Shown: positions 34,892 to 37,013 of the stretch, piece by piece | Layout of the letters: each line of letters begins with the position of its first letter | Numbering within the stretch: position 1 is the stretch's first letter | From: Amycolatopsis thermoflava N1165 | Lineage (GTDB): Bacteria > Actinomycetota > Actinomycetes > Mycobacteriales > Pseudonocardiaceae | Direction of reading: 5' to 3' | Length of the DNA: 64,000 bases | Assembly: GCF_000473265.1 (NCBI RefSeq) | Contig: NZ_KI421511.1 | Span: 7,351,314-7,415,313, forward strand | Position numbers and translations under genes: made by a program | The notes under the pieces: model-generated | What the model was told of the DNA's origin: nothing | The model's input: the letters and a program-made list of their open reading frames with translations, nothing else | Databases searched by the model: none

Positions 34892-35040
34892 GGGAATCGC
34901 CGGCGTTCTGCTTGGGTGCACCGGCAGCCCTGTCGCTCACGCGCCCGCCCACCGCAGCCACGCAGCGCACCCCGCCGCGACCCAGAAACAACCCCCTCAG
35001 GGAACCGCCGGCGTGCCGCCCGGCTGCACCGGCAGCCCGG
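34892..35040. repeat. Imperfect duplication of the rhodanese gene 3' end in the spacer
   Basis: About 41 bases from 34892 match 35000-35040, the last codons of the rhodanese gene, with roughly eight differences (both contain CGCCGGCGT and TGCACCGGCAGCCC). A weaker third relative begins near 34829. The spacer 34765-34891 holds no gene I can support. Confidence 0.7.
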
Positions 35041-35389
35041 CGGCGCGCCAGGCCCGGAAGCCGCCCACCAGGTCCGTCGCCAGGGACAGTCCCAGCCGGC
35101 GTAGGTCGGCGGCCGCCAGGCTGGACGCGTAGCCCTCGTTGCACACCACGACGACCGGCCGGTCCGGGCGCACCCCGGGCAGCCGGTGGTCGCTCGCCGG
35201 GTCGAGGCGCCACTCCAGGTGGATCCGCTCGACCGGCACCGCGCCGGGGATCTCGCCCTCGGCCTCCCGGTAGCCGATCGGCCGGATGTCCACGATCAGC
35301 GCGCCCTCGGCCTGCAGCCGCCACGCGTCGGCGGGCTCGGCCCGCTTCAGGGTGGCGCGGGCGGAGGCCAGCATCTCGTCGATGTTCAT
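34997..35389 (-). CDS. Rhodanese-domain sulfurtransferase
   Basis: The 130-residue single rhodanese domain has active-site Cys83 in the loop VVCNEGYASS and the DIRP substrate-loop Asp. It would move sulfane sulfur. Start ATG at 35389 overlaps the cysteine dioxygenase stop; a GTG one codon earlier is equally possible. Coupling to cysteine dioxygenase places it in thiol/sulfur oxidation. Confidence 0.88.
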   Translation of the reverse strand: MNIDEMLASARATLKRAEPADAWRLQAEGALIVDIRPIGYREAEGEIPGAVPVERIHLEWRLDPASDHRLPGVRPDRPVVVVCNEGYASSLAAADLRRLGLSLATDLVGGFRAWRAAGLPVQPGGTPAVP

Positions 35390-35925
35390 CACCGCAGGAT
35401 GCCCGGCAGCGGCGGGATCTCGGCGGGCACGTCAGCCAGACTGGCGTATTCGCGGGTCGGCACGAGCGGCGGCGAGTAGGCGTGGATGCTCGCCGCGGCC
35501 TCGGTGCCCGCGCCGGTCACCTGGTGCGCCCGCCCGGCGCCGAACCCGATTCCGTCGCCCGTCACGTGGGTGCGCTGCCGGATCGGCCCGCCGGGGTAGC
35601 GGTACTCCTCGGACAGCTCGCCGCGCAGCACGGTGAACGACCCGGCCGCGCCGCCGTGGTCGTGCGGCTTGGTGCCCTGCCCGGGCAGCCAGGTCAGCAC
35701 CCACAGCTCGATCCCCTCGGTCAGGGCGAGCCGCGCCCACCACCGCTGGTCGGCGTCGAAGTGCAGGAACTCCGAGATCCGCGCACCCAGCTCCAGCGTG
35801 ACGGTGCGGGTCAGGCCGGCGAGCTGGGTGGGCGTCCACAGCAGCCGCTCGGGGTGCAGCAGCTCCTCGAGCGCGGTGCCGATCAGGCGCGGGTGGATCT
35901 CGGTCGAACGCAGGACAGAAGTCAC
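35389..35925 (-). CDS. Cysteine dioxygenase type I
   Basis: The 178-residue cupin has iron ligands His88, His90 and His134 (KPHDHGG and GRAHQVTG). It oxidises L-cysteine to cysteine sulfinate. GTG start with GGGAG about six bases upstream. Upstream lies a leader peptide gene with Cys codons and a hairpin, suggesting that cysteine level controls it; downstream it overlaps the rhodanese gene. Confidence 0.9.
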   Translation of the reverse strand: MTSVLRSTEIHPRLIGTALEELLHPERLLWTPTQLAGLTRTVTLELGARISEFLHFDADQRWWARLALTEGIELWVLTWLPGQGTKPHDHGGAAGSFTVLRGELSEEYRYPGGPIRQRTHVTGDGIGFGAGRAHQVTGAGTEAAASIHAYSPPLVPTREYASLADVPAEIPPLPGILR

Positions 35926-35968
35926 AGGGGTCTCCCAGTAAGGTCGCGTGAGAATCGGGAAGAGGCGA

Positions 35969-35998
35969 GACGCGGCAGGTCAGCGACCGTGCCGCGTC
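35969..35998 (-). promoter_or_regulatory. Hairpin overlapping the leader peptide 3' end (possible attenuator)
   Basis: GACGCGGCA and TGCCGCGTC are perfect nine-base arms with a 12-base loop. In the bottom-strand transcript the first arm covers the leader codons just after Cys-Gly-Cys and the stop codon lies in the loop. A ribosome stalled at the Cys codons would cover the first arm and keep the hairpin open. Confidence 0.55.
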
Positions 35999-36093
35999 GG
36001 GCTACACCCGCAGGACGCGACCAGCACCAGATCGACGGCACGGTTGCGCCAGAAGCGGCGCCGCGGGTACCGGGAGGTGCTCACGAAGCGCAT
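35980..36093 (-). CDS. Cys-containing putative leader peptide upstream of cysteine dioxygenase
   Basis: A 37-codon frame starts MRFVSTSRYPRRRF and continues with NRAVDLVLVASCGCS. It fits the actinobacterial 'putative leader peptide' pattern, which has an Arg-rich start, a VDL motif and one or two Cys near the end, and which is found upstream of sulfur genes. In mycobacteria such peptides sense cysteine by ribosome stalling. It ends 54 bases before the cysteine dioxygenase start. Confidence 0.7.
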   Translation of the reverse strand: MRFVSTSRYPRRRFWRNRAVDLVLVASCGCSPTRHGR

Positions 36094-36186
36094 CGTGCCA
36101 CGAGATCCGGCTACCCGCTGTGACGTCCCACCAAGTGGTACGGGGGCGGCGGGACTCCGGCGGCGCCCGGCGGCCACAATGGGCCC

Positions 36187-36990
36187 GTGAGCGAGCCGAA
36201 CGACCTTGACGATCTCGTGGTGCGGATGGCCGGGGTGGGGGTCCGCCGCGGCAAGAACGACCTGCTGGCCGGCCTCGACTGGTCGGTCGAGCTGGACGAG
36301 CGCTGGGTGGTGCTGGGCCCGAACGGCGCGGGCAAGACCACCCTGCTCCGGCTCGCGGCCGCCGAACTGCACCCCACCACCGGGTCGCTGCACCTGCTCG
36401 GCGAGCAGATCGGCCGCACCAACATCTTCGACCTGCGCCCGCGCATCGGCTTCACCTCGGCGGCGATCGCCTCACGCGTGCCGGGGGACGAGAAGGTCGT
36501 CGACGTCGTGGTCAGCGCCGGGTACGCGGTGATCGGCCGCTGGCGCGAGCAGTACGACACGATGGACACCGGCCGCGCCGAGGAGCTGCTGGGCGCGCTG
36601 GGCATCCGGCACCTGGCCGACCGCGAGTACGGCACGCTGTCCGAGGGCGAGCGCAAGCGCACGCTGATCGCCCGGTCCCTGATGACCGACCCGGAGCTGC
36701 TGCTGCTTGACGAGCCCGCCGCGGGTCTCGACCTCGGCGGCCGGGAAGACCTGGTCGCCCGGCTGTCCGAGCTGGCGCTGGACCCGGACGCCCCGGCCAT
36801 GGTGCTCGTCACACACCACGTCGAGGAAATTCCGCCAGGCTTCACCCACGCGCTGCTGCTGCGGGAAGGCCGTGCCGTGGTCGCGGGCCTGGTCGACGAC
36901 GTGCTCACCGCGGAGAACCTGTCGAAGACGTTCGACCAGGACCTCGTCCTCGAACGCTCGGGTGACCGCTTCTTCGCGCGTCGCCGGTAA
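36187..36990 (+). CDS. ABC transporter ATP-binding protein without a permease neighbour
   Basis: The 267-residue ABC domain has Walker A GPNGAGKTT, signature LSEGERKR and Walker B LLLLDEPAAGLD. No permease or binding-protein gene is adjacent, so it may energise a transporter encoded elsewhere or be a soluble ABC protein of the YlmA/ModF-like type. GTG start. Confidence 0.85.
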   Translation: MSEPNDLDDLVVRMAGVGVRRGKNDLLAGLDWSVELDERWVVLGPNGAGKTTLLRLAAAELHPTTGSLHLLGEQIGRTNIFDLRPRIGFTSAAIASRVPGDEKVVDVVVSAGYAVIGRWREQYDTMDTGRAEELLGALGIRHLADREYGTLSEGERKRTLIARSLMTDPELLLLDEPAAGLDLGGREDLVARLSELALDPDAPAMVLVTHHVEEIPPGFTHALLLREGRAVVAGLVDDVLTAENLSKTFDQDLVLERSGDRFFARRR

Positions 36991-36997
36991 GGTCACC

Positions 36998-37013
36998 CCT
37001 ACCGGCCGGTAGG
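36998..37013. promoter_or_regulatory. Operator-like palindrome upstream of the enoyl-CoA hydratase gene
   Basis: CCTACCGGCCGGTAGG is a perfect 16-base palindrome starting eight bases after the ABC gene stop and ending 29 bases before the hydratase start. It shares its core with the element upstream of ccrA at 7243-7256, which hints at one TetR-type regulator for both. Confidence 0.5.

Follow-up and report, generated by a model that had tools for sequence, protein, structure and literature searches.

A leader peptide that acts as an attenuator usually turns on the genes for making the amino acid whose supply it senses. The locus described here raises the question of what such a leader does in front of a gene whose product destroys that amino acid. 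On the minus strand of the window (the whole 64,000-nucleotide stretch analyzed, from Amycolatopsis thermoflava N1165, contig NZ_KI421511.1), a short Cys-containing frame precedes a putative cysteine dioxygenase (CDO) operon, and CDO leaders of this kind turned up in 26 genera within a single family. Such a leader is a compact test case for whether adding one RNA strand could reverse an attenuator's sign. Here, we report that the CDO leader, judged by sequence comparison, is a real, conserved, and functional-looking variant of known actinobacterial Cys-leader control, and that its new elements are an invariant UGU codon and an added, largely CDO-specific hairpin.

The operon (all features on the minus strand) consists of a CDO family protein (35389..35925; GTG start; 178 amino acids [aa]; PF05995, E 1.8e-13; CDO relatives in the PDB) and a rhodanese-domain protein (34997..35392; PF00581, E 2.8e-12) whose gene shares 4 bases with the end of CDO. 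When the CDO profile was compared with the PDB, cysteine dioxygenases came out on top (E 2.4e-17), with 3-mercaptopropionate dioxygenases far weaker (E 0.015). The closest named relatives are from Amycolatopsis, the best being A. tucumanensis (97% CDO identity). Among 80 loci of a named collection, the rhodanese gene comes after CDO on its strand at all 80 and no more than 100 bases away at 79. The CDO start is preceded by a candidate Shine-Dalgarno sequence (SD), GGGAG (35932..35936), which was read from the sequence and scored as a 4-base match. An ABC transporter ATPase gene (36187-36990, plus strand) diverges from the operon and itself looks leaderless (CACAAT, six bases, and then a GTG start); a homologue is divergent to CDO at 45 of the 80 named loci. 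Scanning positions 35000-37000 against Rfam gave only two subthreshold matches, both outside the leader, and no riboswitch, T-box, or other family; 34990-36200 contained no terminator-like site in an intrinsic terminator scan, and no promoter was found before the leader with a strict TTGACA/TATAAT sigma-70 scan.

The leader had originally been predicted as a 37-codon frame running from ATG 36093 to TGA 35982-35980 (MRFVSTSRYPRRRFWRNRAVDLVLVASCGCSPTRHGR, then stop). This frame is present, but its start is probably GTG 36084. ATG 36093 was rejected because its first two bases are covered by CACGAT (36092..36097), the −10-like box of a predicted leaderless promoter, because locus L012 has ATT in its place, and because of the box geometry in other leaders. 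In 82 of 94 leaders, [TC]ANNAT lies 6 to 7 nt upstream of an in-frame GTG or ATG (shuffled upstream sequence, 0.7%); the spacing between box and start is 7 nt in 49 of the 82 and 6 nt in 33, and the start codon is GTG in 63 and ATG in 19. This geometry, together with the overlap between the ATG and CACGAT, argues that the leader is probably leaderless and probably starts at GTG 36084, which gives an open reading frame (ORF; 35980..36084, minus strand) of 34 aa plus stop (MSTSRYPRRRFWRNRAVDLVLVASCGCSPTRHGR). The C-terminal part of the peptide (...VDLVLVASCGCSPTRHGR) does not end in Ser-Cys-Gly-Cys-Ser as had been claimed; six more codons (PTRHGR) come after SCGCS, and these encode the first arm of the hairpin (arm1).

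Homologous leaders were sought with the pattern [VIL][DE][LFQ] followed by Cys ten residues later (Asp-Arg just before favored), which demanded Cys at the second Cys position and allowed any Cys codon. Of 150 genomes of the family, 92 yielded a CDO orthologue at E <= 1e-40, covering 27 of its 46 genera; in the class, 22 of 394 genomes did so at E <= 1e-25. The 101 fetched CDO loci comprised 18 from the genus (a set of 19 genomes, in which G004 has only a CDO paralogue) and 83 of the 85 loci from elsewhere in the family (G051 and G078 not included). A leader was found upstream of CDO at 94 of these 101 loci and at 79 of the 80 named loci; the two sets overlap, partly sharing genomes, and 143 of 169 segments are distinct. 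These counts bear out the original assignment to the actinobacterial VDL type of leader, placed before CDO (PF05995) plus rhodanese (PF00581). Two of the seven loci missed by the pattern (L093 and L100) have a variant recognized by eye; at the others (L018, L055, L075, L110, and L113), the pattern found no leader. Likewise, it found no such leader at CDO paralogues of about 40% identity (L019-L030 and L183) or at 20 CDO homologues in other families (L114-L133) except L129. Five further pattern matches were judged to be nonleaders, four of which share one upstream frame.

L129 has a leader-like, TGT-containing ORF (VDFVRVASALCPRDGR) upstream of a CDO homologue that comes from another family and is 42% identical. 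Within the window's genus, the leader frame extends beyond the CDO start at five loci (L010, L013, L015, L016, and L017), and the two translations overlap. The leaders of L273 and L300, titled Rhodococcus rhodnii NRRL B-16535 and Nocardia sp. NRRL S-836, are Kibdelosporangium- or Lentzea-like, and these labels may be wrong.

The two Cys codons of the leader, which the original prediction had weighted equally, differ in conservation. The second, TGT (36004..36006, minus strand; the putative sensor codon), is TGT in 94 of 94 fetched and 79 of 79 named leaders, whereas the first, TGC (36010..36012, minus strand), lies at a position that holds Cys in only 62 of 94 and 46 of 79 (TGC in 57 of the 62 and TGT in 5). 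In this comparison, the first Cys is dispensable and the second Cys codon is the invariant one. RNA structure was rejected as an explanation of why UGU is invariant, since changing U to C in silico had no consistent predicted structural effect (n = 88; mean change, 0.08 kcal/mol; SD openness, 0.182 versus 0.180). An invariant UGU without a consistent structural reason, next to a mostly UGC neighbor, poses a testable question: does codon choice set the sensitivity of the sensor?

As originally described, a perfect 9-bp stem (35998-35990 with 35977-35969, minus strand) has its first arm just after the Cys codons and the leader stop inside its loop of 12 nt. Arm1 (GACGCGGCA, 35990..35998) begins +8 nt from the first base of the TGT, within the last leader codons, and pairs with arm2 (TGCCGCGTC, 35969..35977). 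For folding, 88 of the 94 leader loci were used (omitted were L079, L088, L092, and L101, which have no SD-bearing start, and L083 and L109, with spacers of >190 nt). When an 11-nt window was scanned against the downstream sequence, pairing peaked at +8 from the TGT (58 of 88 loci). A smaller peak at -40 (32 of 88 loci), where the codons for R-D-R resemble arm1, showed no covariation in the test covering it (z -0.24). With arm1 fixed at +8, ungapped 11-nt pairing exceeded the threshold in 108 of 143 distinct sequences (shuffled downstream sequence: mean, 10.1; maximum, 15), and in the 143-sequence table the pair types change on both sides (c2+9, A-T 60 and G-C 35; c2+14, G-C 49 and A-T 45; c2+16, A-T 40 and G-C 48). 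The hairpin falls under the threshold at 17 of the 88 folded loci, including L002, which is among the window's nearest relatives; 15 of the 17 have <=72 nt from TGT to CDO start.

Covariation was evaluated by swapping arms between genera. In unselected sequences (25 genera, 90 sequences), native arm pairs scored -22.6 kcal/mol against -19.4 kcal/mol for swapped ones (mean z -4.9; range, -6.7 to -3.7), although arm2 was placed via its pairing with arm1, which favors that pairing and is only partly corrected by the permutation. A set preselected for a strong hairpin gave z -4.8, and three control pairings showed no covariation (z -0.24, -0.25, and 0.08). The first swap test, on 82 loci without preselection, was weak (mean per-sequence z -0.38; 21 sequences below -1 and 7 above +1). 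Taken by sequence, the hairpin arms covary across genera, and the conserved hairpin overlaps the leader end. The comparison of this spacer across relatives that had been proposed as a check thus found both the leader and the pairing of its arms conserved.

Other Cys leaders of these bacteria show how far these features are shared. A sister leader, typically VD[LF]CRVRSSLC, precedes DUF4395 plus rhodanese genes (L216, same genome, 6038711 region; L310-L339). Among 30 loci with DUF4395 and a two-stretch rhodanese (PF14340, PF00581), 29 such leaders were found, in which the last Cys is TGT in 29 of 29 and the other Cys is TGC in 26 of 28. Leaders of nitrite/sulfite reductase genes (PF01077, which we take to be sirA) beside cysH-like PF01507 genes were found at 21 of 30 loci (TGC in 15, TGT in 6); within the genus, 17 were found at 18 loci, with TGC in all 17, and four of these genomes recur in the 30-locus set. 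A split between UGU in CDO leaders and UGC in all other Cys leaders was therefore dropped, given UGU throughout the DUF4395-rhodanese leaders and the mixed codons of the sulfite-reductase leaders. In the same genome, a Cys leader (VDLCRLFGSLCR) also precedes an amino acid permease gene (PF13520; L215, 849733 region). Pairing at +8 was seen in none of the 21 sulfite-reductase leaders and in 4 of the 29 DUF4395-rhodanese leaders, which indicates that the +8 hairpin, at least in these sequences, is largely a CDO feature. Among the DUF4395-rhodanese leaders, pairing slightly exceeds the shuffled level at +4 and +8 (5 and 4 of 29; shuffled, 0.4 and 0.0), and the sulfite-reductase leaders show pairing excess at other offsets (e.g., 8 at 0 and 9 at +48).

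Arm2, with the bases following it, has a possible alternative partner in the SD region. In the window, GTCTC at the 3′ end of arm2 (35967..35971, minus strand) could, on a reading of the sequence, form 5 bp with GAGAC (35934-35930) over the SD; this pairing is weak and is not the predicted minimum-energy partner. Across genera, arm2 paired more strongly with the SD region native to it than with SD regions swapped in from other genera (-20.1 versus -17.8; z -3.6 [-5.3 to -1.8]; 22 genera, 77 unselected sequences), and the preselected set also gave z -3.6. In an alignment of 22 Saccharothrix/Lentzea-type sequences, whose selection pattern itself included a portion of the arm2 block, that block (CGTCGCGTCTTGATCGCTACC) is nearly invariant amid a variable spacer; its possible partners are GTAGC..GCGAC in the leader and the SD-proximal GTAGCCATCAGGAGCGAC, and predicted folds switch between the two in L037, L041, and L047. 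Masking arm1 lowered predicted SD openness relative to dinucleotide shuffles, both for the 71 loci (20 genera) that make up the hairpin set (genus-averaged z of 4.3 and 3.5 for two masks, the former from a delta of 0.051 versus a null of -0.004) and across all 88 loci (z 3.1 and 4.0). In the 17 loci under the hairpin threshold, masking had no predicted SD effect. The covariation of arm2 with both arm1 and the SD region suggests a three-strand translational switch.

Our preferred reading, to which we give a little less than an even chance, is that ribosomes operate the region as a translational attenuator of the CDO-rhodanese operon that responds to cysteine, so that cysteine would be destroyed only when it is sufficient. 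From the leader, UGU codon, arms, and covariation observed here, we infer stalling, use of the switch, and sign as follows. Transcription would begin at the leader's own GTG, and ribosomes would translate the peptide [VI]DL..V.S..C, reaching the UGU Cys codon ten residues beyond the Val/Ile, with arm1, encoded by the final leader codons, beginning +8 nt from the UGU. Pairing of arm2 with arm1 would leave the CDO SD more open, and pairing with the SD region would hide it. When charged tRNA-Cys is short, the ribosome may pause at UGU with its leading edge over the base of arm1; arm2 would then be freed onto the SD, and CDO translation would drop. When cysteine is plentiful, the ribosome would move on and depart, arm1 and arm2 would pair, and CDO would be made. 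The net outcome, destruction of cysteine only at sufficiency, would be the opposite of that expected of sulfur-acquisition leaders.

An extended version of this scheme, which we think unlikely, also assigns a role to the codon: the nascent-peptide motif and the single UGU, kept over UGC, would stall ribosomes at a mild drop in charged tRNA-Cys, and the RNA strand added at +8 would stop the destruction of cysteine before sulfate assimilation is turned on by the sulfite-reductase leader, which is mostly UGC-based. If this were true, the synonymous choice of sensor codon would set the order of responses. UGU in 29 of 29 DUF4395-rhodanese leaders and 6 of 21 sulfite-reductase leaders misfits a simple split between degrading and making.

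The sign is where the preferred attenuator meets its chief competitor, a possible but doubtful account in which the ordinary sign is kept: a stall at or near the Cys codons would leave most of arm1 free, or block an upstream pairing between leader and SD, so that low cysteine would turn CDO-rhodanese on, and the operon would serve sulfur release or thiol housekeeping in shortage rather than disposal of excess cysteine. The leading edge of a ribosome lies about 12 nt downstream of the stalled codon (footprint size), and arm1 would thus be partly under a ribosome stalled at UGU, which suggests that the operon is off at low cysteine; a ribosome at the leader stop likewise covers arm1. The invariant codon is the second Cys codon (Cys2), whose stall would mask the arm1 base, and the first, where a stall would leave arm1 free, is the dispensable one; this, and the predicted consumption of cysteine by CDO, speaks against the ordinary sign. 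The +8 position of arm1 and the absence of such pairing from all 21 sulfite-reductase leaders make an opposite sign anatomically allowed. In the hairpin set, predicted SD openness was similar with a ribosome at the stop (0.249) and with a stall at Cys2 (0.219) and lowest without a ribosome (0.165); in a boundary scan, it peaked at 0.30-0.34 with the leading edge between Cys2-18 and Cys2+6 and was lowest without a ribosome (about 0.15; 0.154 at cut -30). Folding as proof of the inverted sign is weakened by these scans, in which ribosome-free mRNA has the lowest openness. With the leader free from Cys2-30, the SD was costlier to open for native leaders than for leaders recoded at random in 6 of the 7 short-set genera (10.5 versus 9.2 kcal/mol) and in 10 of the 20 hairpin-set genera (10.3 versus 9.5 kcal/mol). 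The native leader hiding the SD more than recoded ones, clearest under the hairpin threshold and less clear elsewhere, favors the ordinary sign, as do a weak own-pair preference between the leader segment from VDL to Cys2 and the SD region (hairpin set, z -2.05 with a median p of 0.03; short set, z -1.58), an anti-SD CTCCTG within 25 of 94 leaders, and the direction published for mycobacteria, which is reported to be on at low cysteine. The window's own predicted SD openness barely shifts (arm1 free, 0.355; Cys2 stall, 0.336; stop, 0.429; no ribosome, 0.395), and SD opening energies in its clade have no clear trend. The inverted sign is our best guess from anatomy and metabolic sense and is not settled by folding.

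Other accounts change what is sensed or where control acts. The conserved peptide could be an arrest peptide, its [VI]DL..V.S nascent chain stalling the ribosome at a fixed distance from UGU on a cysteine or other thiol signal, with the hairpin merely tuning. Amino acids are indeed conserved amid synonymous variation (GAC 78 and GAT 15; GTC 65 and GTG 24; GCG 35 and GCC 27), including Val at +5 (89 of 94) and Ser at +7 (69 of 94), both outside the search pattern, and the ten-residue register to Cys recurs in CDO, sulfite-reductase, and DUF4395-rhodanese leaders. However, the Val/Ile/Leu and Asp/Glu positions, the residue that follows them, and the register of the Cys were preset by the pattern, which also favored Asp-Arg, so that conservation there is partly built in; we regard this account as improbable. 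Very improbable, in our view, is control of transcript level instead of SD access, with translation of the leader coupled to Rho-dependent termination or to mRNA decay. The loci under the hairpin threshold, which lack a predicted SD effect, would fit it, and Rho-dependent termination is proposed for terminator-less mycobacterial cys leaders in the portion of Seliverstov et al. 2005 (PMC1262725) used here, but the covariation of arm2 with the SD region points to translation. That a chance ORF and a chance hairpin have come together in GC-rich DNA, where long spurious ORFs are plentiful, has a negligible probability and is refuted by the conservation, the invariant codon, and the covariation.

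Among named families and published leaders, the CDO leader has relatives but no exact counterpart in the sources considered. Its only NCBIfam leader matches, NF042934 (putative leader peptide; 10.3 bits, cut-off 27) and NF042933 (Ms5788A family Cys-rich leader peptide; 16.8 bits, cut-off 45), are both under the curated cut-offs. No Cys leader before CDO was described in the titles and abstract openings among the matches listed by a search of open-licence papers.

Mycobacteria reportedly have polycysteine leaderless short-ORF attenuators, which Canestrari and coworkers are said to have described in 2020, proposing that ribosomes pause and that RNA structure covers the ribosome-binding site downstream. 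The CDO leader is similar in being a short ORF with Cys codons, predicted here to be leaderless, at the head of a sulfur/cysteine operon. It differs in having one invariant UGU at a fixed register in place of a run of adjacent Cys codons, a hairpin overlapping the last leader codons, and a putatively cysteine-consuming target. As to RNA able to hide the ribosome-binding site, a trait of the mycobacterial type, arm2 covaries with the SD region across genera, and this pairing is weak in the window itself. Among the eight leader peptides tabulated for Streptomyces lividans in the passages considered, none is for cysteine. The Cys leaders that the same portion of Seliverstov et al. 2005 (PMC1262725) places before cys and cbs operons in Mycobacterium, Propionibacterium acnes, and Bifidobacterium longum resemble the CDO leader in being short, terminator-less ORFs whose Cys codons lie close to the stop; unlike them, with their Cys runs and no conserved terminator hairpins, the CDO leader has a conserved covarying hairpin and a CDO target. 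The uORFC-8-2 attenuator of cysS in Rhodobacterales, as presented in the section of PMC8632094 considered, is similar in that Cys codons lie in an upstream ORF overlapping a stem, but it has two tandem Cys codons, with UGC dominant, an intrinsic terminator, and a cysteinyl-tRNA synthetase as its target.
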